Source: a virus
DNA length: 33,234 nt
IMG/VR virus record: IMGVR_UViG_3300032299_000164
Coordinates: 1 to 33,234 of that record
Reading direction: 5' to 3' (one strand)
Shown: in pieces, positions 3,410 through 26,493 of the stretch
How the letters are laid out: every line of letters begins with the position of its first letter
Numbering within the stretch: the first letter of the stretch is position 1
The notes under the pieces: model-generated
Database searches by the model: none
What the model was told of the DNA's origin: nothing
Seen by the model: the letters and a program-made list of their open reading frames with translations, nothing else
Program-made: the position numbers and the translations under genes

Positions 3410-3438
3410 ATCCCCGGCTAATCACCGGGGATTTTTTT
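3410..3438 (+). terminator. Intrinsic terminator of the plus-strand replication operon
   Basis: A perfect 8-bp stem (ATCCCCGG at 3410-3417 with CCGGGGAT at 3425-3432) has a 7-base loop and is followed by a run of T to 3438. This is a classical Rho-independent terminator for plus-strand transcription, 49 bases after the 64-aa gene. On the minus strand the hairpin is not followed by T residues, so it should act mainly in one direction. Its loop and right arm overlap the stop codon (3422-3424) of the converging giant gene. Confidence 0.85.
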
Positions 3439-6400
3439 CGGCCAGACCTCTAAGTTCAATATAGCGCCGTTCTTCCATTTCTTTTTCCCTGCGCTCGAGC
3501 TTTTTCTCAAGGTTGCTAATAGCTTCATCACCAACTCCGTAGAACTTTTTAGTTGTAGTCACACCGGCTGGTGATCTTTGGCGTTGATCTTCTTTGGTCT
3601 TCAAAGATTTTTTAACGTCTGCAATTTTTAGCGTGTAGTCAGGGTAGCGCTTGTTAAAGTCCTCGACTTCTTTATCCATGATCTTCTCAAACTTAGCATT
3701 ACCCTCGTCCGTACCCTTACGGTTTTGAATATCCAACCTGCGCAATATCTTACTGCGTTCATTCAAAATATCCTGCTCTTTAGACAGCATTTTGAAACCA
3801 GCTTCTTTAACACTAGCAGTAAGTGCAGGGGCAAAACCAATTATTTGACCAACTTTTTCAGACGTCTTGACGTTCTCGGGCGCAACTAGCTCCACACCTG
3901 TTGCCGACTTAATACCCTCAACGTCGTATTTTTGCGCAAGTAAAAAGTCTCTAATTGGTTTAGGCATCATTTTCTCGTTGCCTTTTTCATAGTCCCCAAG
4001 CATGTACTGTTCAACAGCATCAAGCATACTAGTTGCTACGCTTAAAGTGGGGCCACCAAAATACGCAGCCAAGAAACCTGCTGCGGCTTCTTTAACATCC
4101 TTAGTAGACTTACCGTCTTTTGCCCAAATATCATTGAGACCAATCCTTGAGGATATGCTCCAACCTGTAATAGCATTTATAGGGCCGTCCATAATCCATT
4201 CATCAAGGGGCACCCCACCGACTGAATACTCACCAAACTTTTGCGGCATGTAAACTTCTCTGAGCCACATCTCTGGATCCATGTCTTTAAGTTCTTCAGG
4301 TAAGTCTTCCTCATCCACCTTGTCTTTAAGTCCAGCCACAATACCGTGAATCAATATGGAGTAAGCAGGGATGCCCGCTAAACCTGCTATAGACCCAGCA
4401 GTCATGTAAATACCAATGAATTTAGCCAACGCTTCTTTTTTGCCCTCTTTGTTGAAGAAGGGGATCATCTTTAAGAAGTTACCAACTAATTGCTGGATCA
4501 TAACCACGGGGTACATCTTCATTGCAAACGCAACGCGCCCCACGCCACGTTGCATCCAACGTGGTTTGTTTGTAGTTTCGTAATCGCCGAGCGCCTCACG
4601 AGTGTCATCAGCAGCTTGTTTAATTGCGTCGGCTTCGGACAGTCCACGTTGTTTGCCCAAACGATACGAAGCTAGATACACCACCTCGCGAGTTAGGCGC
4701 TCCATGTTGTGCATCAATGCACCAGTTATAAGATACGCAGCTTCTTTGCCCCTACCTCTGACACTTTCCAAATCGGATACAGGGGTCTGAGAGTAATCGT
4801 ACACTTGTGCAACGTAGGTAGACTGTGCCACATTCATGCGGGTCATAGCTTGAATAGCCCGCTTCTCATCTGCGGGTAAGTTCTTAGCGTTAGCAATACT
4901 AGGGGCAACGTAGCGGTGCGTGCCGTCTACATTCTCTTTAATAACACCGTACTGGTTTAAGTACGTTATCATTTTTCCAAGTTCTTTAGCCGTCCTAATA
5001 GGCGAGAAGCCATGGTTAGCCGCCAAGATAGGCAGGGCGGAGACATATATAGATATAGGCTGAATTAACGCAGTCGACGCACTAGTAAGTGTCCATAAGT
5101 ACGTAACTCTGTTGGCTACTCCGGCAACTGCATCCCAAACGTCCTGTGGTCTTGGTGACAACACAGTTGCTACACGCCGCTCCAACTCTTTTACATACGG
5201 TAGTAAGTATTCTCTACCTACGATACTATCCCTTGCGGCAGAAGTAACGTTACGCATCTTTTGCGCATATTTGAGGCGAGCCAACTGCACAGACATTTTT
5301 GCGGCTGTCTTAGCTGTATTTTGGATCAGGTCAGTTCTATAACCACCACGGCCTTTACGATGACGGAACATCAAGCGGAAGCTTTGCTCAGGCATTGTGT
5401 TTAAGAACACTTGATACACAGAGTCTTTTAAGTTCTCTTTGTAAGCGTTTGTTGTGCCTTCTGTATCCCCAGCAGGAAGCTTAATAGCATCAATTGCTCT
5501 AAAGATAGAAGTTAGTAGTTGACTAGAATCCCTTGCAGTGTTACGCAAAGCATCAAGGTCGTCGCCTAATTCCATCTCTCCTGAGTCACGCATCTCCTCA
5601 ATGGATTGTCTTTTCTCTCCGGCAATACGTGCGGCATCTTCGTCACGTTCTGTTGCGGATTCATAAATATAAAACGCCCTAGTAGGAGAGCTTGATTTAC
5701 CAACGGCTAACCAGAAGTCGCCTTCGTCACGCACAAATGGGAAGAAGGGTTTGATCCGATCTTTGGTCTCGTACGTCTGGCGAATAACAGCGGCCAGATT
5801 ACTCTTAACTTCGTCAGTTAAACCAGAGATACCACGCACCTGCTCATCTAATAGCTCAATAAATAAGTCACCCATGTCGACGTAGTAGTCACGCCACATC
5901 TTGTACAACTCTTGACCTTTTGCGCCGAGTGCTTTGTAACCGTTGTCAAAGACTTTATCCCGCACTTTTTGCGTTGTATCCGACGGATCGTACTGAGCGT
6001 CTGTTGTCTCGTAGACCATCTTTTCAAGCTTTGCTTCCAAAGTCTTGTCGGCTTTAAAAGCATTACGCGTTACACGGATGCGTTCTTCTGCGGCCTCAAG
6101 AAGTGCCTTGGTCATACCCTTCATGTCATTGTGCAAATCCAATGCTTGTTGAACTTGCGGCAGATCGTTTTTAACCCAGTCGGCCAAAAAGTCCCAAGTT
6201 GGGAGTTGCACTGCTACTGCACGCTGACCTCTACTCATTTTCTTCCAAGCACCCTTGAACAGTATTTTGGCTTTCTCTGGGTCTCTAAGCTTTTGCAACA
6301 ACCCAGCGTTCTTAACTTTTTGAGAGTCTGCAGATTGTTGGTATGTGATCTCAGCTTTTACGCGAGCCTTAGTAAGTTCTTTAGCGGTGCGCAGTTCTTT

Positions 6401-9400
6401 TTGCTCGCCCTTATCCGCGTCTTCATCAAACTCAGGAGGGGTGTAGTTAATCTTTTGTGGGAGTGCGCCACCCTTTGTATCAACTTTGGTCAGCCTTGTG
6501 CCAAGCATCTTGTCAGTAATGTCGATCAAATCAGAGAACGCAGTAGCTTCACCCGCCTTGATACCAAACAAGTCACGAATGCTATTGGTAAATTTAGAGA
6601 ATATGCTTGTTTCTTTACGAGTGCCTTGTACACGCATCAGAAACTTTTGGAACTCAGGGCTAGACATGCCATAAGCTAAAAACTCATGGGGGTTCGTAAA
6701 TATGTCGTAGCTGTCTGTCTTAGGGTTGTAAGTCTTACCCACTATATCGAGAACGTCTTCGCTAACCATATCAAGATACGTTAGCTCTTTATATTCCTGA
6801 TCGGCACGTTTCATTATGCCTTCCATCTCACGCATAAACTTCTGCAAGCTGGCGTTCTTAAAGCCTTTTAATAGACCTGCGTCAATACGACTAGCCGTTG
6901 CTGCGTGCAGCAATTCGTGCAACACAGTTATAACGTTTATACCTTGTTGGTCTCCGAAGCTAGCACCACGCACGTACACAGTACGATCTTTTGAGCCGGG
7001 GGTATAAACAAATAAACCACGCGCACCTTTTAGCTCTTCAAGAATCTTAGCTGGAGTTGCATCACCCTTTTCAACAACTACAAACTTAACGCCGACCATA
7101 AAGTTGCGGATGCGCTCAGCAACAAAGCGCTGAAACATATTACCGGTCTTAACGATGTGCGTAATTGCTTGCGAACCAGTAGTCAGCTTGCTAAACCCTG
7201 TGTCGGGCTTGGCTACCTTTGCTTCAGAAGAACGTAGCTTTTTGGGGATATCCTTTGGATCGACATCGTCCTCAAGCATTTGCTTGGCGCGTTCACGCAC
7301 GGCTTTTGGCGCAGTAGGATCATTTGCAACTTCGCTAATATACATTGCTGAATTAGCTACACTGTCTTTCCCTACGGGTGAGTTGTACGTTTCAAGCGCC
7401 GCTTCCAAAGCATCAAGTTCTACTTTGTCTTCTCGGCTTAGTTCAGCAGTGCCATCTTCTGACGTAGCCTTAGCTGGTCGGCCTCGGCCTGTAGACGTAA
7501 GTGCCTTATCAAGTTCGGCTTGGTACTGAGCAACACGAGCAGTATCGCCTCTGTCTTTTGCTTTAGCCAAATTAACAGCCGCAATAGCCTGCTTTTTATT
7601 TTTGTATGTTGCAGTTACCTCGCCATCCGTAACGTGGTCAAACCCACCTTCGGAGTTTTCTGTAACTACATGCCGTTGTTGAACAGATGGCCGACCGCGC
7701 TTACCCTTACCTGCTCCGGCTCCTGATGCCGCTTGTCCTTCTTGCGTTGTTTTGACGGTTTTAGAGGTTTCAATGCCACCTGTGGTTCCTTTAGTTTTTG
7801 TGGGGGATTTAGTCTTATCAAGTCCAGTGTCAAACAGGCCGACTGATGAATGTTGGTCGTCGGAAAAACGAATGCCGTCGTAGCCTAAAGCTTTGAGCGG
7901 GCCGATGATGTCTTTCTTAAGCTGGTCGCCGTATGTGGAGCTAAACTTCGTGATGCCCCAAAAGCCACTGTTAAGTTGAGTGGTGCTATCAGGGTCGGTT
8001 TTATCTCGTGCGTCAAACTTAGCCGCATCCACAAGGTCACTGCCAACTCTAGTGGTTGGTGTTAAGCCCGCAATTACATCTCGTCCTTCTGGAGTAGAAA
8101 TGTCTAGTAGCTTCAACCCACTAAAGTCTTGTGTGATGATGCGCGAAGTCTTAGGCACAACCCCAGCCGTACCGCTGTCTGGGTTAGTCATCTCTTCCGC
8201 TTCGGCTTGACTCAGACTTGGGTATGCTTTATCAAGAGGTTGGATTGTGTCTTGGTTAATTAACCCCTCTTCAGGAGCAACGCCGACCGCTTTCCATGTT
8301 TCGCCGTCAAGCTCATAGACAACGCCTCTATCAGTGACTATGTACTTTTGCGTGTTATCAAGCCTTGCACGCCCACCACCGCCATTTTGCGCATAACGTT
8401 GCGCAGTAGATAAGTCTTCACCAAAAAATATCATGCCCCCGCTTTTCTCTGGGTCAAGAGTGTCGTACTGCGTGTTTGTACCGTGGTACAGGGTGGTAGC
8501 TTTTTCTGGTGTAGCTTTTGGCGCTGCTTTTTCTTGGCGTTGGGTTATTTCTGTTTTTACAAGGTCGTATTCAGCATCGCTAAGACTAGTATTAGTAAGT
8601 TCTGTGTCAAGCTGCTCATCCGATAACGTACGTACTGCTTCAGGTGTAACTGCTCCACGAGTTAGGGTAAATGGCGATGGCTTTGTTTCTGTAGGTGTTC
8701 CTTTTGACGCTTCTCTAGCGGCGTCAAGTTCGTCGATTTGTTTGGCGATAGCATTAAATTTATCCCTGCCCTCTTGAAGCCTAGCTTCTGTAGCTGCCTT
8801 TGCAGCATCACGTTTATCAGCATCAAATTGGCCTTTCTCATCTAAAACCAACGGCTTGCCGTCATCGCCCAAAACACTTGCCGCACGGCCACTACCCAAC
8901 TCAGTTAATTGGTCTACGGCAGCATTTGTTTCGTTATTAACTTCTTCAAGTTGTTTAAGAAGCACGTCCCTTTTTTCAAGGAAAGTTAATAGGTCGGATA
9001 CGTCCTTACTTTGTCCTTTTAATGCAAACGGCTCGACTGTTTCTCCAGCAGTAACTCCTGCAACATCCTGTCCAGTAGGTACCACTCCACTTGGCTCAGC
9101 GACTCCAACTCCTGCGGCGGGGGGCTCTGCACTGGACTGTCCAACCACGCTAACGCTCTCTCCACTTGGTGTACTGATAGGTTCAACAATATTTGTTGTT
9201 CCTCCTGTTTCGTCCTTCGCAAGCTCATCTGCTTGTGCCTCCTCTTGGGCTAGTTGTTGTGCGTCAAGCTTTGCCTGTTGTGGTGGAACCCCAGCCGCAA
9301 TCAGTTCTTGTGTAATCTGCTCTTCACGACTTTCGGGTATCTTAATAGCCGCAGTTTTATTTTCGGCTTTTATGGCATCGGCAACTCTACGTGCTGCCAT

Positions 9401-10861
9401 ATTTTTAGCAGTATCAGGAGGCGTGCCTAATGCAACCAATCGTTCGTATTCTTGTTGAACACGAGCTTCACGAACTGCATCGGGTGTTGTCTTTGGTATG
9501 GGTGGAGGTGGTGGAGGTGTCTCTTTTAAGTCATCGCTTGGACGCACTTCCCCAAGTTCACCTAAGTCCATATTTACAGGTTCTTTTTGCGCAGCAAGTT
9601 CAGCGTTGATTGCGGCTTCTTGCTCAGCCATCCTAGCGTTACGTAAATTAGAACGCGCTTCTAGTGGAGCAGTAACGACCCCGGCCAAAGCTTCAAGCAA
9701 CACATCGGCGGGTTTGTCATCACCTGTGGCTTTTTGTGCTATAAATTCACCGCCAGCACCGCCAGCCGTTTGGGTTGCCAGCTCTTTACCCCATGCCGCC
9801 ATCGTAGCTTTTTTAGCCGCAGTACCAGCAAGTTTACCTTCAGCAATAAGAGCCTGCGCAGGTTTTAGGAATTTACCAGCTACGCCCAGAGACAAGCCGT
9901 CAATTACACCAATAATCAAACCGCGTTTAGCGGCTTTATCGCGCATCTCTGCAATAATTTTTGGGTTGGACAACGCTTTAGATATTGCGTTTGCATCCAA
10001 CATATTGACGCCTTTGTCTTGCAAAACGTCAGCCATAACCGAACCATACTCAGTAGCACCTGATGTAGAGCCGCCAACAACAGACCTAGTTACAACTCCA
10101 GCGGGGCCGAGCACTAAAGCAGGAACCATACCGGGCAAAGATACCGCCACGGACTCCACCAACATGGTAAACGTTGCACGTGGGTTAGAAGCCAGAGCGG
10201 AGATAGCTTCGCCGTAGGTTTTGGAGTTGCCGATTGCTTCCATACCCGCACGGATATCTTGAGATGGGGCAGCGGCTGCTCTTTGTTTTGCATTGCGTGC
10301 CAATAAACGCCCTGCAGCATCGGCGTCGGCTACACCAGTCTGAAATAGGTAGCTTGTAGCAATATCGCCTAAACTTGCATCTACGCGCTTAAACATGTTG
10401 CCCGTTGCTTCTGCGGCATACTTTACGGGGGATTCAGTAAATTTAGTTTCAGGTGTGGCTTTAACCGTACCAGTGGGTTCAGCCCTAGCGCGAGGCGGCG
10501 CAGGTACAGCCATTGGCGCTTGCTGTTTAAAGTAGTCACTACCCCGTTGCTGCCCGTGCTTAATTACGTCCTCAAAATTAACACCCATGCTTTGGAGAGA
10601 CTGTTTTAATTTTGCTTGGTCAGCGCCCTCTTCAAGAAGGTTGACGGCATCGTCAAGCATTTCAATTCGATTTTTATACGGGGCGCGTTTAGGCGGCTCG
10701 GATACTTTTTCTACTATGGGAGTAGACGGGGCAGGCTTTGGCGCAGGAGGCTGCTTACTTTCTGCAAGTAAGTTTTGGACGGTAGAATCAATAACGTCTG
10801 GGTTTGTGCCGTCGGGAAACCTTAGAACTCTTCCATCCGCGAGTTTTGCCTCGATTGCCAT
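3422..10861 (-). CDS. Giant polyvalent virion protein: ART-like domain, AT-hooks, HExxH metallopeptidase, PLxRFG-like region
   Basis: This 2479-aa protein is the last gene of the virion operon. The N-terminus (ADGRVLRFPDGT) matches a motif I know from phage internal proteins. Residues 150-430 hold Gly/Ala-rich, membrane-like stretches, and a poly-Pro linker follows. An ADP-ribosyltransferase-like domain starts at YHGT 792-795, with FFGEDLSTAQRYA and, near residue 1000, LGYDGIRFSDD. Two AT-hook cores follow, KRGRP at 1054-1058 and GRGRP at 1125-1129. A zinc metallopeptidase shows HELLH at 1315-1319 and a candidate third ligand Glu1393 in NPHEFLAYG. FFPFVRDEGDFW near 1705 resembles the PLxRFG motif. 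Hydrophobic segments lie near 1920-1950 and 2145-2177. A basic, charged helix closes the protein. An ejected effector and channel protein is inferred. The start has AAAGGGG before ATG. Confidence 0.85.
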   Translation of the reverse strand: MAIEAKLADGRVLRFPDGTNPDVIDSTVQNLLAESKQPPAPKPAPSTPIVEKVSEPPKRAPYKNRIEMLDDAVNLLEEGADQAKLKQSLQSMGVNFEDVIKHGQQRGSDYFKQQAPMAVPAPPRARAEPTGTVKATPETKFTESPVKYAAEATGNMFKRVDASLGDIATSYLFQTGVADADAAGRLLARNAKQRAAAAPSQDIRAGMEAIGNSKTYGEAISALASNPRATFTMLVESVAVSLPGMVPALVLGPAGVVTRSVVGGSTSGATEYGSVMADVLQDKGVNMLDANAISKALSNPKIIAEMRDKAAKRGLIIGVIDGLSLGVAGKFLKPAQALIAEGKLAGTAAKKATMAAWGKELATQTAGGAGGEFIAQKATGDDKPADVLLEALAGVVTAPLEARSNLRNARMAEQEAAINAELAAQKEPVNMDLGELGEVRPSDDLKETPPPPPPIPKTTPDAVREARVQQEYERLVALGTPPDTAKNMAARRVADAIKAENKTAAIKIPESREEQITQELIAAGVPPQQAKLDAQQLAQEEAQADELAKDETGGTTNIVEPISTPSGESVSVVGQSSAEPPAAGVGVAEPSGVVPTGQDVAGVTAGETVEPFALKGQSKDVSDLLTFLEKRDVLLKQLEEVNNETNAAVDQLTELGSGRAASVLGDDGKPLVLDEKGQFDADKRDAAKAATEARLQEGRDKFNAIAKQIDELDAAREASKGTPTETKPSPFTLTRGAVTPEAVRTLSDEQLDTELTNTSLSDAEYDLVKTEITQRQEKAAPKATPEKATTLYHGTNTQYDTLDPEKSGGMIFFGEDLSTAQRYAQNGGGGRARLDNTQKYIVTDRGVVYELDGETWKAVGVAPEEGLINQDTIQPLDKAYPSLSQAEAEEMTNPDSGTAGVVPKTSRIITQDFSGLKLLDISTPEGRDVIAGLTPTTRVGSDLVDAAKFDARDKTDPDSTTQLNSGFWGITKFSSTYGDQLKKDIIGPLKALGYDGIRFSDDQHSSVGLFDTGLDKTKSPTKTKGTTGGIETSKTVKTTQEGQAASGAGAGKGKRGRPSVQQRHVVTENSEGGFDHVTDGEVTATYKNKKQAIAAVNLAKAKDRGDTARVAQYQAELDKALTSTGRGRPAKATSEDGTAELSREDKVELDALEAALETYNSPVGKDSVANSAMYISEVANDPTAPKAVRERAKQMLEDDVDPKDIPKKLRSSEAKVAKPDTGFSKLTTGSQAITHIVKTGNMFQRFVAERIRNFMVGVKFVVVEKGDATPAKILEELKGARGLFVYTPGSKDRTVYVRGASFGDQQGINVITVLHELLHAATASRIDAGLLKGFKNASLQKFMREMEGIMKRADQEYKELTYLDMVSEDVLDIVGKTYNPKTDSYDIFTNPHEFLAYGMSSPEFQKFLMRVQGTRKETSIFSKFTNSIRDLFGIKAGEATAFSDLIDITDKMLGTRLTKVDTKGGALPQKINYTPPEFDEDADKGEQKELRTAKELTKARVKAEITYQQSADSQKVKNAGLLQKLRDPEKAKILFKGAWKKMSRGQRAVAVQLPTWDFLADWVKNDLPQVQQALDLHNDMKGMTKALLEAAEERIRVTRNAFKADKTLEAKLEKMVYETTDAQYDPSDTTQKVRDKVFDNGYKALGAKGQELYKMWRDYYVDMGDLFIELLDEQVRGISGLTDEVKSNLAAVIRQTYETKDRIKPFFPFVRDEGDFWLAVGKSSSPTRAFYIYESATERDEDAARIAGEKRQSIEEMRDSGEMELGDDLDALRNTARDSSQLLTSIFRAIDAIKLPAGDTEGTTNAYKENLKDSVYQVFLNTMPEQSFRLMFRHRKGRGGYRTDLIQNTAKTAAKMSVQLARLKYAQKMRNVTSAARDSIVGREYLLPYVKELERRVATVLSPRPQDVWDAVAGVANRVTYLWTLTSASTALIQPISIYVSALPILAANHGFSPIRTAKELGKMITYLNQYGVIKENVDGTHRYVAPSIANAKNLPADEKRAIQAMTRMNVAQSTYVAQVYDYSQTPVSDLESVRGRGKEAAYLITGALMHNMERLTREVVYLASYRLGKQRGLSEADAIKQAADDTREALGDYETTNKPRWMQRGVGRVAFAMKMYPVVMIQQLVGNFLKMIPFFNKEGKKEALAKFIGIYMTAGSIAGLAGIPAYSILIHGIVAGLKDKVDEEDLPEELKDMDPEMWLREVYMPQKFGEYSVGGVPLDEWIMDGPINAITGWSISSRIGLNDIWAKDGKSTKDVKEAAAGFLAAYFGGPTLSVATSMLDAVEQYMLGDYEKGNEKMMPKPIRDFLLAQKYDVEGIKSATGVELVAPENVKTSEKVGQIIGFAPALTASVKEAGFKMLSKEQDILNERSKILRRLDIQNRKGTDEGNAKFEKIMDKEVEDFNKRYPDYTLKIADVKKSLKTKEDQRQRSPAGVTTTKKFYGVGDEAISNLEKKLERREKEMEERRYIELRGLAEKNPR

Positions 10862-18782: not shown

Positions 18783-19226
18783 TTAGTCCAGCAGTGCGCA
18801 CTCAGCAGTGCGCCGTTTAAGCAAGCCCGGCAACACCTTGCCGCCGCCTTTAGTCCAGAGCATTAGTTGTTCTTTTGCGCCTTCCCAATCATTGGCGTTG
18901 ATTTTCCTCTTTAACGTAGATGTTTGCAAGCGTCCCGTGCCCAAATTGTAGGCAAAATCCACGATGGCGTTGCACTTACGTACGTCTGTAATCAAACCGG
19001 GGCAGTTACGCAGAACACCGGGCAGGTACGTATGTTCTAACTCAATCATCAAAAGCGCCCTTGCCGTGGGTTCATCCATCGGCGGGTCTTCCAAAGTTAC
19101 CTTGCGTTTGTCTGCGTAGTAGGTAGAGCCATAGCCAATCGTTGCCACATTAGCCGGACAAAGGTAGGGCTTGGCCCGATACCCCTCAAACCGGCGGCAC
19201 AGTTCAGCAGCAAGCTCCAAATTCAT
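18783..19226 (-). CDS. Endolysin, GH24 T4-type lysozyme
   Basis: This 147-aa muramidase should cleave peptidoglycan at the end of infection. The active-site segment is FEGYRAKPYLCPANVATIGYG: Glu14 is the acid catalyst and Thr29 the conserved Thr. The residue that is Asp20 in T4 lysozyme is Cys23, with spacing (9 and 6) exactly as in T4. A Cys at that site is known to keep T4 lysozyme active, so the enzyme is probably functional. The GxR/NLGTGRL region near 95-100 is also typical. There is no signal peptide or hydrophobic N-terminus, so export depends on the holin encoded just upstream. Its ATG overlaps the holin stop (ATGA). Confidence 0.92.
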   Translation of the reverse strand: MNLELAAELCRRFEGYRAKPYLCPANVATIGYGSTYYADKRKVTLEDPPMDEPTARALLMIELEHTYLPGVLRNCPGLITDVRKCNAIVDFAYNLGTGRLQTSTLKRKINANDWEGAKEQLMLWTKGGGKVLPGLLKRRTAECALLD

Positions 19227-19717
19227 AGCCCGCGCTGCTTCAGAGTACGGTCAAGGAACCAATAGTTAATTGTTCCAGACAACAAGGCTGAGAAGTCAGG
19301 AGTCATCATGGTTTTGAACACTTCTACGGCTGGCGCACCGGCAAGCCATGCGTTCCATGCAAACCATACGTGGATAAATGACCAGACAAACAACACCCAG
19401 TAAGTTACGACTGGACGCACAGAAGCTGACAAACTAGCAACCCAACCGCCTGCGGCTTTGACCATCTCAGCTTGCTGAACGATGGCGTTGTTAAACGCAT
19501 CCATAACACCTACGTCAATAGCGGCTTCCCGCTGTGCGCCAATCTCGGCTAACTTCTGCTGACCACGCAGAGTTTCTAACTCACACTGACGGGCAAACAT
19601 ATTGAGTTCGTGCTGGCGCTCATTCTTCCTGTCAAAAAACTTTAGGACTTCAGGCGCAAGGCGGAACAGCCCACCAAAGATAGAGCCAAGTAAACCACCA
19701 GATAGGATGTCAAACAT
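19223..19717 (-). CDS. Holin, 3-TM type
   Basis: This 164-aa membrane protein should form the lysis pore. Hydrophobic segments lie at about 3-20, 103-125 and 141-155, around a charged helical region, and the SVRPVVTYW element before the second segment is typical of the 3-TM holin superfamily. The start at ATG 19717 is preferred over one 15 bases upstream: it has GGAG 9 bases before it and overlaps the stop of the 30-aa gene as TAATG. Its own stop overlaps the lysozyme start. The holin-lysozyme order and tight coupling support the call. Confidence 0.85.
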   Translation of the reverse strand: MFDILSGGLLGSIFGGLFRLAPEVLKFFDRKNERQHELNMFARQCELETLRGQQKLAEIGAQREAAIDVGVMDAFNNAIVQQAEMVKAAGGWVASLSASVRPVVTYWVLFVWSFIHVWFAWNAWLAGAPAVEVFKTMMTPDFSALLSGTINYWFLDRTLKQRGL

Positions 19718-19809
19718 TACACCATACTCCATGCAATTATGTACGTGCCAAAAATAACAAAGGCCACAAGAAGGACTGCGGCAATCAATGCTTCAGCCCA
19801 GTCCCACAT
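19717..19809 (-). CDS. 30-aa single-span membrane protein of the lysis cassette
   Basis: This short ORF fills the gap before the holin. It encodes MWDWAEALIAAVLLVAFVIF followed by GTYIIAWSMV: an acidic N-terminal face and one hydrophobic helix at about residues 7-26. It has GGAG at 19816-19819, 6 bases before ATG, and its TAA overlaps the holin ATG. That signal and the coupling make it likely to be translated. Its place suggests a holin partner such as an antiholin or a pinholin-like peptide. No family is recognised. Confidence 0.7.
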   Translation of the reverse strand: MWDWAEALIAAVLLVAFVIFGTYIIAWSMV

Positions 19810-19841: not shown

Positions 19842-21458
19842 TCAGGCGGTGTAACTACCGCTTGCCGTAAATGTCAAAATAGTATTTGACCCAGATGTTG
19901 TTACCGCAGGTGAACCCGTAGTTGTACCTGTGTAACTTGCAGTTGCAATGGACAAGATTACTACGCCTGCATAACCGTTACCGCCAGTTGCAGAAGCACC
20001 CCCGCCACCGCCACCGCCACCATAGAATGTTGCATTACCGCCCGTAGAAGTTAGTGTGCCGTTTCCACCGCCTCCAGTACCTCCAGTACCTGCGGTCGTG
20101 CCGTTTGTACCACCACCGCCACCGCCAGCGTAAGTCACAGACGATCCAGTAATTGAATTAGCTAAACCATTACCACCATTACCAGCAACAGTTCCTGATG
20201 TTGCATTACTACCTACGGCTCCTGCTCCACCGCCTCCACCGCCAGCGTAGTTTGAAAAGCCAGTCCCGCCAGCATTACCTTGACCAGTTATTCCCAAACC
20301 GCCAGTTGTGAAGTTGTAGTTACCGCCACCGCCAGAGCCACCCTGAGTAGCGCCTGCTTGTGAAAGCGTATTGTCCGTGGAACCTCTACCGCCACCGTAT
20401 GCCAATATGCCGTTAAAAGAAGAAGTGCCTCCTTGAAGTCCAGCACCTCCTCCTGCCGCACCACCAACACCAGCGCCGCCTACCGTGATTGGGTAAACAA
20501 CACCAGACACAAGGGCAGATGATCCTGTTAGTAATCCACCAGCACCGCCACCTCCGCCACCAGCTTGTGAGCCTGCACCAGCGCCGCCACCGATAACCAA
20601 GTAAGACGCAGAATAAGCAGTTACAGAAGGTGTAGTAGGAGCCAGTGTGCCTGAAGATGTAAAAGTGTGAATGACACAGTTGTCAGCCATACTGACTGTG
20701 CCACCAGTGAAATATTGAATTGAGCCGGGGTAGCGAACAATGACAACGCCTGAACCGCCATTCCCACCAAACCAATTTTGACCACCACCACCACCACCAC
20801 CTGTGTTTGCGGTTCCAGCGCCACCTTGAGTAGGTGCGTTTGTTCCATTTCCACCGCCACCTACACCGCCAACACCCAATGTTGTTGCGTAACCACCTCC
20901 GCCTCCGCCAGCATAAGCAGTTAAAGTTCCGCTTATGGCGCTAGTAATACCAGCGCCACCATTACCGCTTAACAAGTTAAGACCTTGAAGTCCAACAGTT
21001 CCAGCACCACCACCACCGCCAGAGCGATCATTACTAAAACCAACTCCGCCAGCGTTTCCTTGTCCTGATATTCCAGAGCCAACAAGTGTGGTACTGCCGC
21101 CAGCCCAGCCACCGCCGCCTGAGCCACCGCTTCCAACGGTGCTGTCATTTCTCATGCCGTATCCGCCACCTGTAGCGGAAATAGAACCAAAAACAGAAGC
21201 GGCTCCATTTGTAGCGGTGTTACCACCAGAAGCATTTCCAGTGCCACCTGCGCCAATAGTGACTGTATAAGATGAGCCAGATGTAATTCCTGCATATCCA
21301 GCAAGCAATCCACCAGCACCGCCGCCAGCCGCACCTCCACCACCTCCTCCAGCAACAACCAAATACTCAACAACAGCGGGGGGTAAACCCGTCCAAGTCT
21401 GGTTTTTAACCGCTTGACTGACTTGACTTAGCGTCCACATTCCACTGTATTGAGCCAT
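19842..21458 (-). CDS. Polyglycine-rich tail/adhesin protein, two-module type (copy A1)
   Basis: This 538-aa protein opens with MAQYSGMWTLSQVSQAVKNQ, a short attachment-like region shared with copy A2, then EYLVVAGGGGGG, the hallmark of the glycine-rich domain found in phage tail fibres. Two modules follow, about 30-260 and 283-538, each with SYTVTIGAGGTG, a YAGGGGGG block and a GGSGVVIVRYPG end; they are joined by STGTLAPTTPS. The C-terminus TTGSP...TFTASGSYTA matches the B-type copies. Polyglycine-II sandwiches form the receptor-binding tip of phage S16 gp38, so host adhesion is a reasonable inference. AGGA precedes the ATG. The low-complexity DNA makes recombination with the paralogues likely. 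Confidence 0.75.
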   Translation of the reverse strand: MAQYSGMWTLSQVSQAVKNQTWTGLPPAVVEYLVVAGGGGGGAAGGGAGGLLAGYAGITSGSSYTVTIGAGGTGNASGGNTATNGAASVFGSISATGGGYGMRNDSTVGSGGSGGGGWAGGSTTLVGSGISGQGNAGGVGFSNDRSGGGGGAGTVGLQGLNLLSGNGGAGITSAISGTLTAYAGGGGGGYATTLGVGGVGGGGNGTNAPTQGGAGTANTGGGGGGGQNWFGGNGGSGVVIVRYPGSIQYFTGGTVSMADNCVIHTFTSSGTLAPTTPSVTAYSASYLVIGGGAGAGSQAGGGGGGAGGLLTGSSALVSGVVYPITVGGAGVGGAAGGGAGLQGGTSSFNGILAYGGGRGSTDNTLSQAGATQGGSGGGGNYNFTTGGLGITGQGNAGGTGFSNYAGGGGGGAGAVGSNATSGTVAGNGGNGLANSITGSSVTYAGGGGGGTNGTTAGTGGTGGGGNGTLTSTGGNATFYGGGGGGGGASATGGNGYAGVVILSIATASYTGTTTGSPAVTTSGSNTILTFTASGSYTA

Positions 21459-21469
21459 GATTATTCCTA

Positions 21470-21826
21470 TTAGGCGGGTACTACGACTTCAACCCAAGAG
21501 GTTGTGGGTTCGTCCCATGTGTATCTCTTGTCGTCTGTAGGCATGGGCGTAGGTGCGCCCCACTGACAAGTATCTTCATTCAGCAACCAAGACGCAAATG
21601 GCTTGGGAGGAATGAACGCATCACGGCCTGCATCGTATGTATAACCGATGCCAGCGTAGTTTTTACGCAGCGGCGTACCACCTTGTGAGTGAACTCCACC
21701 AGAAGTGTTGTAACTTGTCTGAATCCAAGATGCTGGGTCGCCCCAGTGACCAAGGTTTAAAACGTCCTGCTCGATGACGATGACTTGCGTCACTACACCG
21801 TTTTCTACTTTAGCGAAATGTGCCAT
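21470..21826 (-). CDS. Conserved 118-aa tail-associated phage protein
   Basis: This protein begins MAHFAKVENGVVTQVIVIEQ, continues with WIQTSYNTSGGVH, then PLRKNYAGIGYTYD..RDAFIPPKPFASW and a WGAPTPMP...YTWDEPTTSWVEV end. I recognise this pattern as a small protein widespread in cyanophages and other marine or freshwater phages, usually beside tail-fibre genes, without an agreed function. Here it sits between glycine-rich copies B1 and A1, with 9 and 11 bases to its neighbours, and has AAGGAG 5 bases before its ATG. It may be a fibre cap, assembly factor or minor tail protein. Confidence 0.75.
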   Translation of the reverse strand: MAHFAKVENGVVTQVIVIEQDVLNLGHWGDPASWIQTSYNTSGGVHSQGGTPLRKNYAGIGYTYDAGRDAFIPPKPFASWLLNEDTCQWGAPTPMPTDDKRYTWDEPTTSWVEVVVPA

Positions 21827-21835
21827 TTTTGCTCC

Positions 21836-22711
21836 TTAAAAAGTGATTGTCCCAGAGGACGTGAAAGTATAAATCTGATACCCATCAGAGTAGTTTATCT
21901 GAGGGCTTCCTGTTGTGGAAGTGGGTGGTAATAAAGATGAGGGGTAACGAATGATGACGATTCCAGAGCCGCCAGTGCCGCCGCTTCCTTGATACTCTCC
22001 ACCACCGCCCCCACCACCCGTATTTGCCGTAGCGGGAAAACCAGCCCCATTTAAATTTAATGCACCTTGTCCTCCACCGCCAGCACCGCCAAGACCGCCC
22101 GTTGTTATAGCGGTTGAATCAGTAGAAGCACCGCCACCGCCACCACCAGCATAAAAAACTCTTGCACCTGTAATAGTTGAGCAAAGTCCAGTGCCGCCTT
22201 GACCGCCTGCCGCTAAAGAACCAGCGGAAATAGCAAATGCATTTCCACCAGCGGAACCAGCACCGCCGCCGCCAGCACCCGCACCAAAAAAAGTTGCTTG
22301 GGAGACACCGCCGTTATTACCTTGACCTGCTGTGCCAGAACCAAATCCAGTTGTGTTATCGTGTCCAGCACCGCCGCCAGAACCCCCAGACAAGGCGCTC
22401 CCACCCGCCGCACCGCCTCCGCCTCCACCCGTAGATGTAATTGAACTAAAGACAGAGTTAGTACCGCTTGTGCCAATTTGAACGCCATTACCAACCAAAA
22501 CACCGCCTGCGCCCCCAGCCCCTACAGTCACGGTTAAAGCAGAACCAGACGCAACAGCAAAGCCAGCCGCAGTCAAAAGACCACCTGCTCCACCTCCGCC
22601 ACCGCCTGCGCCGCCACCACCAGCGACTACCAGATATTCAACTTCGGTAGTTGTACCAGACAGTGGATTAAAGGTTGCGGAAAGGAATCCACCTAATAAA
22701 GTTTGACTCAT
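21836..22711 (-). CDS. Polyglycine-rich tail/adhesin protein, single-module type (copy B1)
   Basis: This 291-aa protein begins MSQTLLGGFLSATFNP, then EVEYLVVAGGGGAGG and one glycine-rich module with GGLLTAAGFAVASG, LTVTVGAGGAGG, FYAGGGGGG, ANTGGGGGG and GGSGIVIIRYPS. It ends TSTTGSP...YTFTSSGTITF. The N-terminus and C-terminus are shared with copy B2 and differ from the A-type copies. Its ribosome site GGAG lies inside the last codons of copy A2, whose stop is one base before this ATG. A role as receptor-binding or fibre protein is inferred from the family. Confidence 0.75.
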   Translation of the reverse strand: MSQTLLGGFLSATFNPLSGTTTEVEYLVVAGGGGAGGGGGGAGGLLTAAGFAVASGSALTVTVGAGGAGGVLVGNGVQIGTSGTNSVFSSITSTGGGGGGAAGGSALSGGSGGGAGHDNTTGFGSGTAGQGNNGGVSQATFFGAGAGGGGAGSAGGNAFAISAGSLAAGGQGGTGLCSTITGARVFYAGGGGGGASTDSTAITTGGLGGAGGGGQGALNLNGAGFPATANTGGGGGGGEYQGSGGTGGSGIVIIRYPSSLLPPTSTTGSPQINYSDGYQIYTFTSSGTITF

Positions 22712-22712
22712 T

Positions 22713-24374
22713 TCAACTCCATTTAATAATCACAATACCAGAGCCGCCGGAATTTCCTACTGCGTTTGAATTACCATTTCCACCTGCGCCTCCACCTGTG
22801 TTTTCTCTACCGGCAGTTCCAAAACCAGAATTGATATTTCCATTACCTCCTCCGCCTACACCGCCTGTACCACCTGTATTTGAAGTGCCTTCTACGCCAC
22901 CACCGCCACCGCCCGCATAAGTTATAGAAGCACCTGTAATAGATGATGCCGTACCAGCACCGCCATTACCACCAGCACCGCCACTGGCATTAGCCCCAAC
23001 TGCACTAGCTCCACCGCCGCCGCCGCCAAAATAGGGAGAACCAACAGTACCATCACCACCATTATTTCCTTGTCCAACAGTCCCCGTACCACCAAAGGCC
23101 GGGCCACTGGGAAATGAACCCGCACCGCCACCACCAGAACCGCCACTTAAACCAGTATAAGCGCCGCCAGAACCCGCACCACCGCCACCGCCTCCTAATG
23201 ATGTAATGCTAGAAAATACAGAATCAGACCCATTGAACCCTCTTATGTTTGAACTTGTGCCGGGTGCGCCCCCAGCACCTACAGTTACAGTGTAAGAAGT
23301 GCCAGAAGAAACAGAAAATCCAGACGCTGTTCTAAAACCGCCTGCGCCGCCACCACCTCCGCGATCACCACCAGAACCACCACCACCAGCAACAACTAAG
23401 TATTCAACCGATGTCACACCAGCGGGTGCAGTCCAAATACCAGACTGAGTAAATATTACAAAACCACCTGTTAAAACTGTTGGAGTTGTTGGAGCCAGAG
23501 TTCCAGATGCAATAAATTTGTGAATGATATAACCACCATAAGCAAGCACAGTCCCACCAGTGTAAAACTGCACAGAGCCGGGGTATCTGACTACTACGAT
23601 GCCTGAACCGCCTGCGCCGCCAGCAAAACTTGAAGCACCATTACCGCTTGATCCACCGCCCCCACCGCCTGTGTTTGTAGTACCTGCAGTGCCTGCTTGA
23701 CTACCGCCAGTGCCGCCATTACCGCCGCCACCTACGCCACCTATTCCTTTTACACTATCGCCAGCACCACCGCCACCACCAGCATAAACAGTAACAGCTC
23801 CTGAAATTGCACTTGCAATCCCTGCGCCTCCGTTACCACCAGTAGCCGATCCACTAATACCGTTTAAACCAACAGTGCCTGCACCGCCACCACCGCCCAT
23901 TGTGGTTCCGTAATTAGAGGTTGTTAATGATGCACCGCCGCCATTACCTTGACCTGATATACCTGAACTTGTAGATGTGTTTCCTGATCCACCACCAGAA
24001 CCGCCAGAACCACCAACTACACCAGCGGCTCCACCCGCGCCTGAATAAGCACCAAAGCCACCACCTGTAGCCGTGATAGGGCCAAATACAGAACTAACGC
24101 CTTGCACACCGTTATTTTGTCCAGCCGCTCCGCCTGCACCGCCAGCACCAACTGTTACTGTGTAAGAAGAACCGGCTGTAACAGGAATCATGCCAGTTAG
24201 CAGTCCCCCTGCTCCTCCACCAGCACCCGCCGTAACATTTCCAGAATCTCCTGCACCACCACCACCACCAGCAACGCAAAGGTACTCTACAAATTGAGGT
24301 GGATTAAATGCTGACCATGCGCCTTGACGAATGGCTTGGTTAACTTGTCTGAGTGTAAAAAGACCTTGTGCCAT
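22713..24374 (-). CDS. Polyglycine-rich tail/adhesin protein, two-module type (copy A2)
   Basis: This 553-aa protein starts MAQGLFTLRQVNQAIRQGAW, alignable with copy A1, then EYLCVAGGGGGAG. The first module ends GGSGIVVVRYPG near residue 265. A linker containing ASGTLAPTTP and FTQSGIWTAPAGVTSVEYLVV leads to the second module, which ends abruptly at GGSGIVIIKWS without the TTGSP tail seen in the other three copies. The missing tail suggests the copy was shortened by recombination. GAGG stands 4 bases before the ATG, just after the B2 stop. Inferred role: tail-tip or fibre adhesin, as for the paralogues. Confidence 0.75.
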   Translation of the reverse strand: MAQGLFTLRQVNQAIRQGAWSAFNPPQFVEYLCVAGGGGGAGDSGNVTAGAGGGAGGLLTGMIPVTAGSSYTVTVGAGGAGGAAGQNNGVQGVSSVFGPITATGGGFGAYSGAGGAAGVVGGSGGSGGGSGNTSTSSGISGQGNGGGASLTTSNYGTTMGGGGGAGTVGLNGISGSATGGNGGAGIASAISGAVTVYAGGGGGAGDSVKGIGGVGGGGNGGTGGSQAGTAGTTNTGGGGGGSSGNGASSFAGGAGGSGIVVVRYPGSVQFYTGGTVLAYGGYIIHKFIASGTLAPTTPTVLTGGFVIFTQSGIWTAPAGVTSVEYLVVAGGGGSGGDRGGGGGAGGFRTASGFSVSSGTSYTVTVGAGGAPGTSSNIRGFNGSDSVFSSITSLGGGGGGAGSGGAYTGLSGGSGGGGAGSFPSGPAFGGTGTVGQGNNGGDGTVGSPYFGGGGGGASAVGANASGGAGGNGGAGTASSITGASITYAGGGGGGVEGTSNTGGTGGVGGGGNGNINSGFGTAGRENTGGGAGGNGNSNAVGNSGGSGIVIIKWS

Positions 24375-24380
24375 ATATCC

Positions 24381-25265
24381 TCAGAATGTAATTGTTCCAG
24401 ATGCAACAAATGTGTACACGCGCCATGCGCCAGATACAACCATTTCAGGAGAACCTGTGGTTGATGTAGCAGGGGCTAAGTAAGATGGGTAGCGAATGAT
24501 TACGATGCCAGAGCCGCCAGCGCCGCCCACACCAAGATCGCCGCCTGATGACCCACCGCCACCACCAGTGTTGGCAAAACCAGAACCGCCAGTACCGTCA
24601 CCGGCAAACGCATTACCGCCACCACCAGCCCCACCAATACCCGGTAAATTGGTTGAAGCATACGGCGCTCCGCCACCACCACCAGCGTAAAAAATTTGTG
24701 CGCCACTAATAGACGAAACAAATCCTGTGCCACCGCTTGTACCGTTTTGAATTCCTGATACTGCGTTTACGCCTGCCGAACCTGCACCGCCTCCACCCGC
24801 ACCTGCGCTATATGGACTAACGCCAATTGCGTTGCCACCTGCGTTACCCTGTCCTACTGTACCTGCCCCGCCAAAACTTCCCTCAACAGTGAATGAAGTT
24901 GGAGCACCGCCACCGCCAGAGCCGCCAGATGCGCCAACGTTTGTTACTATACTATTGTTGTTTGAACCGCCACCGCCACCACCAGTGGAAGTAATAGAAG
25001 AAAAAACAGAATTTGCACCGTTTGTTCCTTTTACTGTTGAGTTAATTGCGCCTGCTCCACCAGCACCAATAGTCACAGTGTAAGAAGTGCCGACTACTAC
25101 CGCAAGGCCTGCAGCAGTTAATAAACCACCAGCACCGCCCCCACCGCCACCCCTAGTGCCACCGCCACCACCGCCAGCCACACATAAGTATTCCACCGCT
25201 GTGACAGGGTAGTTAATGCCGTTTAAACCGGCTGAGAGAATCCCGCCAACTTTACTAAGAGACAT
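24381..25265 (-). CDS. Polyglycine-rich tail/adhesin protein, single-module type (copy B2)
   Basis: This 294-aa protein is the first of the four glycine-rich copies in transcription order. It begins MSLSKVGGILSAGLNG, then AVEYLCVAGGGGGG, with GGLLTAAGLAVVVG, SYTVTIGAGGAG, FYAGGGGGA and GGSGIVIIRYPS, and ends TSTTGSP...YTFVASGTITF. It is clearly the closest relative of copy B1. GGAGG lies 5 bases before the ATG. As in the other copies, the glycine-rich runs probably form a stiff sandwich of polyglycine helices at a fibre tip, and loops between them would vary host specificity. Confidence 0.75.
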   Translation of the reverse strand: MSLSKVGGILSAGLNGINYPVTAVEYLCVAGGGGGGTRGGGGGGAGGLLTAAGLAVVVGTSYTVTIGAGGAGAINSTVKGTNGANSVFSSITSTGGGGGGSNNNSIVTNVGASGGSGGGGAPTSFTVEGSFGGAGTVGQGNAGGNAIGVSPYSAGAGGGGAGSAGVNAVSGIQNGTSGGTGFVSSISGAQIFYAGGGGGAPYASTNLPGIGGAGGGGNAFAGDGTGGSGFANTGGGGGSSGGDLGVGGAGGSGIVIIRYPSYLAPATSTTGSPEMVVSGAWRVYTFVASGTITF

Positions 25266-25277
25266 GATTGCCTCCGA

Positions 25278-25676
25278 TCAAGAAATGACTTCGTAGCTGA
25301 TTGTGTAAGTGATGCCGCTGGCTGTACCTGATGTCACGGAAATTAACTGATTTTCCATCAAATAAATAGCTGTTGTTTTATCTACAACAATCAATGAAGC
25401 ATCAGGAGGAACAGACACCGTAGAAGCAATTGGGTAGGCTGTACCGCTTGCGGGGGCAGAGCCTTGCGTGGTAACAGATGACCCGACATAGATAGAAACC
25501 GTAGTATCCACAGCCGCAGAACCGTTTACGTTGGCCGCAACGATCTGGTTGATCTTAAAGACCTGACCGCTTGTAGAGGTGTTAGCCACCAAGATTACCG
25601 CAGTTGTAGCGCTGGGTGTGAGATACGTTGTTGTGCCTGACGCTGTGGTCGCGGCGAAAAGATTTGGATTTGCCAT
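25278..25676 (-). CDS. Small structural/tail protein of unknown family
   Basis: This 132-aa protein begins MANPNLFAATTASGTTTYLTP and is rich in Thr, Ser, Val and Ala, with alternating strands and the segment DASLIVVDKTTAIYLMENQLISV, consistent with a beta-sandwich decoration or tail protein. The start at ATG 25676 is chosen because AAGGAG lies 6 bases upstream. A longer in-frame reading to 25778 would add a spurious hydrophobic stretch translated from inside the neighbouring gene. It sits between the fibre-like protein and the glycine-rich adhesins. Confidence 0.75.
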   Translation of the reverse strand: MANPNLFAATTASGTTTYLTPSATTAVILVANTSTSGQVFKINQIVAANVNGSAAVDTTVSIYVGSSVTTQGSAPASGTAYPIASTVSVPPDASLIVVDKTTAIYLMENQLISVTSGTASGITYTISYEVIS

Positions 25677-25682
25677 GTTTAA

Positions 25683-25688
25683 CTCCTT
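25683..25688 (-). promoter_or_regulatory. Shine-Dalgarno AAGGAG deciding the start of the 132-aa protein
   Basis: AAGGAG on the minus strand lies 6 bases before ATG 25676. It overlaps the stop region of the upstream 268-aa gene. It rules for the short start and against the longer frame that runs to 25778. Confidence 0.75.
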
Positions 25689-26493
25689 AGAATCCGAAGA
25701 CCATTGCGATTGCGGTAACTCTAGCTTGAGAAACGCCAGCACTACCAAAAGAAAGATTACCAGAACCATCTGTAACAATGGCCTGACCAGCTGCGCCGTC
25801 TACACCGGGTAGTGTAAACGTTACATTAGTAGCAACCGTGCTGGGAGCTTGAAGCGCTACATACTGACCGCCTGTTGTATCTTCAAAGCGAACATCGCCT
25901 TGTGCGGTAACGTTGACCTGCGTGGCTACAACTGTGCTTGGGGTCGCCGCACCAAGAGGGCCAGATAAACCAGCCGCAGCCAGCGTTGTGCCATTAAAGG
26001 TTAGGTTGGCAGAGCCCGCCAAGTTACCAGAACTGTTGAACTGAACCTGTGTATCAGAGCCGCCAGCCGATGCGCCTACGCGCACGTAGTCTGAACCGTT
26101 GAACGCCACCAAAGCTTTATCGCCTACGGCAATCGTGACACCTGTTTGGCCACTTGCTTTGATTGTGACTGAGCCACCTGTAGCGTTGTTAAGAACCACA
26201 TAGGTTTTGCTGTAACTTGCGCCACTTGGAGCCGTGATAACTTTTGTTGTGGTTAATGTGCCAGTAACCTTTAGGATCGCGTACTGTGCGGTGGTAGCGC
26301 CAATATTTGTAGCGGAGGCACTACCAATGGTATTTACCAGATTAACCGCCCCGTCGCCATTGAGTGTCAATGTACCGGCAATAGCAATATCCGTGTATTC
26401 AGTAATACCGTTATTAACAGTGTTGCCCCACGTACCCGAGAGCGTGCCTTGCGTTGGGGTTACTAGGCTTAGATTACTTGTTTCTGCTGCCAT
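25687..26493 (-). CDS. Tail fibre-like protein
   Basis: This 268-aa protein begins MAAETSNLSLVTPTQGTLSG and TWGNTVNNGITEYTD, an N-terminal pattern I know from tail proteins of marine and freshwater phages. Its middle is Gly/Thr/Ser-rich beta structure. DTQVQFNSSGNLAGSANLTFNGTTL is a common element of phage fibre shafts and of fibre proteins with chaperone-type tails. The C-terminus is short and hydrophobic (VTAIAMVFGF), with no visible intramolecular chaperone. AGGAG precedes the ATG. It probably forms part of the fibre or its attachment, upstream of the adhesin genes. Confidence 0.7.
   Translation of the reverse strand: MAAETSNLSLVTPTQGTLSGTWGNTVNNGITEYTDIAIAGTLTLNGDGAVNLVNTIGSASATNIGATTAQYAILKVTGTLTTTKVITAPSGASYSKTYVVLNNATGGSVTIKASGQTGVTIAVGDKALVAFNGSDYVRVGASAGGSDTQVQFNSSGNLAGSANLTFNGTTLAAAGLSGPLGAATPSTVVATQVNVTAQGDVRFEDTTGGQYVALQAPSTVATNVTFTLPGVDGAAGQAIVTDGSGNLSFGSAGVSQARVTAIAMVFGF

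Follow-up and report, generated by a model that had tools for sequence, protein, structure and literature searches.

A probable exchangeable cassette of four glycine-rich adhesin genes in a podovirus and its environmental relatives

The analysed DNA is a 33,234-base IMG/VR virus record, classed as linear (the window), and the region at positions 19,842–25,265 is probably an exchangeable four-position receptor-binding (adhesin) cassette of a podovirus. Glycine-lattice adhesins are known from other phages; here four of them occupy locked positions in a conserved cassette whose tips are exchangeable, an arrangement of which a literature search, limited in extent, yielded no description. The evidence consists of the gene order, slot-specific anchors, the pairing of the genes in a module tree, hypervariable loops, mosaic genes, other fibre genes occupying this site in relatives, and the resemblance of the predicted fold to Pam3 gp24. 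From the same data we infer location in the virion, receptor binding, the oligomeric state, simultaneous display of the four proteins and a chaperone role of a small fifth protein.

As the preliminary description had it, the region contains four glycine-rich genes and one small gene, transcribed from the minus strand in the order B2, A2, B1, the 118-aa gene and A1, with open reading frames of 294, 553, 291, 118 and 538 aa. The motifs GGxLSA, TSTTGSP...SGTITF, MAQ...LxQVxQA and GTLAPTTP named there are likewise all found. Slot 1 (B2; 24381..25265) encodes a candidate adhesin with a single glycine-rich module (PF21722, E=1.3e-22), consisting of an anchor (aa 1–24; 25194–25265), a Gly core and a conserved C-tail (aa 260–294; 24384–24488). 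Slot 2 (A2; 22713..24374), supported by its ORF, Pfam match and slot-2 orthologues, contains an anchor (aa 1–29; 24288–24374), module 1 (aa 30–264; 23583–24287), the GTLAPTTP linker and module 2 (aa 321–553), which terminates in IVIIKWS. Slot 3 (B1; 21836..22711), recognised by its ORF, Pfam match and tree partnership with slot 1, is again a single module, with an anchor (aa 1–24; 22640–22711) and a conserved C-tail (aa 257–291). The 118-aa protein (21470..21826; PHROG 7759, E=2.1e-35) is situated between slots 3 and 4. Slot 4 (A1; 19842..21458), a mosaic two-module gene defined by its ORF and Pfam match, is composed of an anchor (aa 1–30; 21369–21458), module 1 (aa 31–243; 20730–21368), a linker and module 2 from aa 282 (19845–20615).

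All four large proteins contain 32–36% glycine and match Pfam Gly_rich_2 (PF21722) with E-values from 6e-21 to 1.5e-49 and scores of 76–170 bits, against a curated cut-off of 24.3 bits; it is the sole Pfam family found in them. Since one Gly_rich_2 stretch lies in each of B2 and B1 and two lie in each of A2 and A1, six modules are counted. All four also match PHROG 2295. Both families are without an assigned function, and the four-slot cassette forms no part of the definition of the families to which these proteins belong.

Directly upstream of slot 1 lies a 132-aa protein (25278..25675, minus strand, ATG at 25675), whose counterpart stands beside another fibre cassette in locus L101. The upstream border of the exchangeable region is a 268-aa protein (25687..26493, minus strand), inside which, at ~26084, homology to relatives with other cassettes ends. 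The downstream border is a 169-aa lysis-region protein (19223..19732, minus strand; PHROG 6637), followed by a lysozyme, and homology restarts at ~19675–19718. Also downstream of the cassette is a virion structural protein of 714 aa, for which homologues often bear the annotation stabilization protein. The interval between slot 4 and the 169-aa gene holds a 30-aa peptide with a single membrane span (MWDWAEALIAAVLLVAFVIFGTYIIAWSMV; 19717–19809, minus strand), by its sequence a possible small lysis protein. Elsewhere in the window, a 2479-aa polyvalent protein (3422–10861, minus strand) shows a DarB-like antirestriction match (PHROG 10089) in its C-terminal part and a sub-threshold ADP-ribosyltransferase-like stretch, and a 950-aa DUF927/primase-helicase-like protein is encoded at 345–3197 on the plus strand, opposite to the structural genes.

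The cassette is a fixed set of five genes common to dozens of environmental phages. Relatives were gathered by IMG/VR scans with B2, A2 and A1 as queries, and duplicates were removed. The order Gly-Gly-Gly-118-Gly, with the 118-aa gene between slots 3 and 4, recurs in 45 loci besides the window and the window's own fragment; the anchors are divergent in one or two of these (L093, L057), and analysable orthologues come from 39–41 loci per slot (39 for slot 1). Among 16 loci with both flanking markers, 13 show the full order, two are short of one Gly gene and the last has just one Gly gene. Since most of the loci were reached by way of these proteins, such counts are no measure of frequency among all phages. 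Given this order in so many loci, and same-slot orthologues as the nearest relatives of the window genes, four genes are normal for the group, and the impression that four such genes in one phage are unusual does not hold. Among more distant arrays, L086 has the 118-aa gene after a run of seven Gly-rich genes, and L089 and L091 encode proteins with four modules (1067 and 1119 aa). Seven loci on genome contigs fall in scattered MAGs and indicate no clear host. A tblastn search of isolate phages with A2 returned no match, probably owing to low-complexity masking.

In every slot, the protein starts with a conserved anchor specific to that slot and ends in a conserved tail, and the intervening glycine scaffold bears about nine hypervariable loops. 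Examples of the anchors are MSLSKVGGILSAGLNGINYPV for slot 1, MAQGLFTLRQVNQAIRQGAWSAFNPP for slot 2, MSQTLLGGFLSATFNPLSG for slot 3 and MAQYSGMWTLSQVSQAVKNQTWTGLPP for slot 4. Median anchor identity is 69–83% within a slot and 25–48% between slots, and the corresponding core identities are 62–64% and 57–61%. In orthologue pairs whose anchors and C-tails are up to 100% identical, the cores are still only 57–65% identical. In slots 1 and 3, column conservation reveals invariant glycine motifs alternating with the roughly nine variable stretches, and the core varies between 213 and 251 aa in length across loci. The loops differ in length, which makes substitution-only hypermutation of the DGR type unlikely; the scan of proteins from this window, which may be incomplete, brought no reverse transcriptase to notice. 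T-even gp38 (T2, S16, PP01; PMC12892980, PMC12529663) likewise combines an N-terminal attachment part and a conserved C-terminal end with glycine motifs that alternate with hypervariable receptor loops, a role that is putative here. Unlike gp38, the present proteins have no Pfam gp38 match, the S16 structure 6F45 is absent from their fold matches, no gp37 partner is seen, and four copies are present.

The A-type anchor (GVWTxxQ...W) is also located at the N-termini of non-glycine fibres (L101:2056-4320, L174:5220-7121 and L124:3465-4418). In the L101 and L174 fibres, it is preceded in the same chain by a B-like GAIL/GGLI stretch, the B part being recognised by eye. Because non-glycine fibres carry them, the anchors seem, from sequence, to be general docking peptides; a search with anchor models found few non-glycine proteins.

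Strict anchors in a fixed order are to be expected if every anchor has its own partner, and the probability is not far short of even that the four proteins build one hetero-assembly, a branched or stacked fibre with a fixed docking order as in the Ackermannviridae, rather than serving as four alternative adhesins. In the Ackermannviridae, four tail spikes are linked by conserved N-terminal parts and their C-termini vary (PMC11414711); the present locus resembles that complex in its four position-specific genes, conserved N-terminal parts, variable C-terminal parts and diversification by exchange. The tight spacing of the genes and the tandem B-like stretch and A-type anchor in the same-site fibres of L101 and L174 also favour such an assembly. 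However, the XD/TD linking domains of the Ackermannviridae were not found by Pfam, short peptides and glycine lattices standing in their place, and some relatives are short of slots, L105 and L167 having GGhG and L113 having Gh. More tentatively, the locus may be a four-position array, in which the four anchor peptides dock in fixed order at their own sites or on a neighbouring protein, many lineages plug in glycine-lattice or lectin tips, and one small protein serves all four. In such an array, the sister-phage fibres that combine the two anchor types in tandem on a single chain would be a fused form, either ancestral or alternative.

The predicted structure of B2 points to a known tail-fibre fold. 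The AlphaFold2 model, built from 46 sequences, reached a pLDDT of 89.2 and a pTM of 0.86, and the uncertainty lies mainly in the anchor (pLDDT 49–57). In a Foldseek search of the PDB, the Pam3 fibre ranked first (7ypx_A, E=1.4e-4, prob 1.00), followed by a Bxb1 tail-tip chain (E=4.1e-4) and, without significance, the ALK glycine-rich ectodomain. TM-scores to the Pam3 fibre are moderate (0.41–0.47, rmsd 10.6) and thus support a fold of the same type, although the two structures do not superpose. A phmmer search of the PDB identified no relative, and a profile search reached the Pam3 fibre at only E=0.05. Pam3 gp24 bears a TNF-like and glycine-rich tip assigned to host recognition and requires the chaperone gp25 (PMC9608196). 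The B2 model shares the TNF-like plus glycine-rich fold at the TM-scores above, and the locus resembles gp24/gp25 (PDB 7YPX/7YFW) in the glycine-rich lattice on a β base, the glycine stem with variable loops and the small gene alongside. The difference is that Pam3 relies on a single fibre gene, whose product has a long helical shaft, whereas four short-anchor genes are present here; the helical N-terminal shaft is absent from the B2 model, whose anchor comprises ~24 residues.

The 118-aa protein is a candidate chaperone that most likely helps the adhesins to assemble or caps them. Its model (pLDDT 82, pTM 0.66) is nearly all-β, and its first PDB match is Pam3 gp25, a weak one (E=0.25, prob 0.54, TM 0.31). 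That independent fold searches with B2 and with the 118-aa protein lead to one solved Pam3 complex is suggestive. It is a quite conceivable alternative, if not the one to be expected, that the protein belongs to the tail as a structural or glycan-binding component, given a model that, unlike gp25, has no helical trimerisation domain, together with numerous conserved Trp residues and chaperone profiles that do not match: no Pfam family was found, and a test for sequence homology to Tfa / Phage_tail_APC found none (hhalign probability 0.2%). The chaperone or cap role is favoured by the identity of the best fold match, weak as it is, namely the chaperone of the very fibre matched by the adhesins, and by a relative in which a tail chaperone replaces the 118-aa gene at the same site. 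It is also favoured by the neighbourhoods of the isolate homologues, which adjoin Gly-rich or tail-fibre genes. PHROG 7759 has homologues in 37 records of isolates or named phages; they are flanked by Gly_rich_2 genes in Roseobacter phage CRP-143 and Manatee Spring podovirus, adjoin a Gly_rich_2 gene in Pelagibacter phage HTVC025P, and in Melnitz-3 and CRP-207 are found within the tail region, close to genes annotated as tail assembly chaperones. At L117:6437-7825, a Gly_rich_2 protein is followed by a Phage_tail_APC chaperone with no 118-aa protein, an arrangement like the Pam3 gp24-gp25 pair.

The A-type proteins exchange their tips. A1 is a mosaic of an L002-like module 1 and an L181-like module 2, and a 100-nt identity profile places the probable site of recombination around the GTLAPTTP linker (20620..20760, minus strand). 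From the gene start to ~20760, identity to the L002 slot 4 gene is 76–95% per 100 nt and then falls to 43–67%; from ~20760 to the end, identity to the L181 slot 4 gene is 86–97%, ending at 100%, having been ~52–74% before the junction. Over the first 200 nt, the shared anchor keeps both genes similar; past that point, whichever of the two is not the match stands at 43–68% or lower, except for an 84% overlap near the junction. Distal modules also cross between slots 2 and 4, as seen from the 93% identity of the L181 slot 2 and L190 slot 4 modules. In other phages, the distal module of the A slots is missing or its place is taken by Laminin-G or by SPRY together with DUF7483 domains (Pfam). A-slot proteins of ~1050–1100 aa are encoded in L083 (slots 2 and 4), L185 (slot 4), L186 and L198 (slot 2); in both L083 proteins, the Gly module is followed by SPRY and DUF7483 (Pfam), and the 860–950 nt beyond the Gly module are 86–90% identical between slot 2 and slot 4 genes across phages.

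Furthermore, the whole cassette is replaced in close relatives. The flanks of L107 and L112 retain 72–85% DNA identity to the window, up to ~26084 and from ~19675–19717, and between them lie other fibre-like genes, followed in each by a gene alignable with the L101 chaperone. In L101, whose flanks are 90% and 83% identical, the site is occupied by DUF7483 fibres and a Phage_tail_APC chaperone. With tips exchanged and other fibre genes at the same site in near relatives, the locus behaves as a receptor-binding region, and the earlier proposal of several receptor-binding variants is plausible in view of the fold, the hypervariable loops, the tip exchange and the replacement by other fibre genes. 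The host-recognition modules of Alteromonas phages A5/V22 (PMC10579305) similarly comprise a fibre-plus-chaperone cassette moved between distant phages; those fibres are lectin-tipped, and glycine-rich tips are not mentioned in that text. It is improbable that the proteins are instead virion decoration or structural proteins whose loops bind a non-receptor partner, as families annotated without a function might allow, in the face of hypervariable loops, tips exchanged with lectin domains, fibre-plus-chaperone cassettes replacing the site and the Pam3 fibre fold.

The relationships among the modules point to an old duplication. Within the window, core identity is 66% for B1–B2 and 61% between A1 and A2 in module 1; module 2 of A1 stands apart as an outlier, with ~50% identity to every other module. 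Core alignments score 14–28 SD above shuffled-sequence alignments and non-glycine identity is 48% (B1–B2) and 41% (A1–A2 first modules), so the likeness goes beyond composition. As the preliminary description would have it, an IQ-TREE tree of 68 modules unites slots 1 and 3 (99/92) and the first modules of slots 2 and 4 (98/94); the second modules of slots 2 and 4 form a mixed group (87/83). A FastTree tree of 192 modules agrees, with 22 slot-label changes against 119 with shuffled labels. Because the two slot pairings are supported groups, duplication of a B-A unit is a likely origin, as proposed earlier, although it is not particular to this phage; the A1/A2 pairing stands for the first modules, but the second modules are not direct partners and belong to a pool shared across slots and phages. 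Judged from sequence, the duplication is likely to be older than the divergence of the sampled phages. A recent duplication in this phage, yielding extra receptor variants, would also give the two slot pairings of the tree, but is very improbable and was rejected on the orthologue pattern: paralogue DNA identity is only ~64–66% (B1–B2 ~64%), the same gene order recurs in the other loci, each first module of the window has a same-slot orthologue in another phage, not its paralogue, as its closest relative, and same-phage paralogues are barely more alike than those of different phages (60.7% vs 59.8% for slots 1-3, a value as high in 30/2000 permutations). Strong within-phage gene conversion was likewise rejected, given this small difference and no clear same-phage excess for slots 2-4 or the second modules in the permutation comparison.

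In the proposed mechanism, the four glycine-rich proteins would hold four fixed positions, each joined to the tail by a short docking peptide of its own at the N-terminus. Strands from the N- and C-terminal ends would build a β-rich base, on which the glycine-rich lattice displays the loops that contact the host surface, and the 118-aa protein would help to fold or cap these repetitive fibres. The cassette would have arisen from the old duplication of a B-A pair, after which the anchors, tails and linkers were kept and recombination swapped cores, distal modules or the whole cassette. The conserved anchors, tails and linkers may supply the homology for recombination, such that tips are exchanged and docking is undisturbed.

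Glycine-lattice adhesins have so far been known as single tips, as in gp38 and Pam3 gp24. If the present reading is true, a four-socket cassette would explain variation in host recognition among small-genome environmental phages, and it would provide an annotation rule for "hypothetical" glycine-rich phage genes, in which the anchor denotes the slot and the loops denote the specificity. The cassette also bears on whether small podoviruses show several receptor-binding proteins simultaneously.
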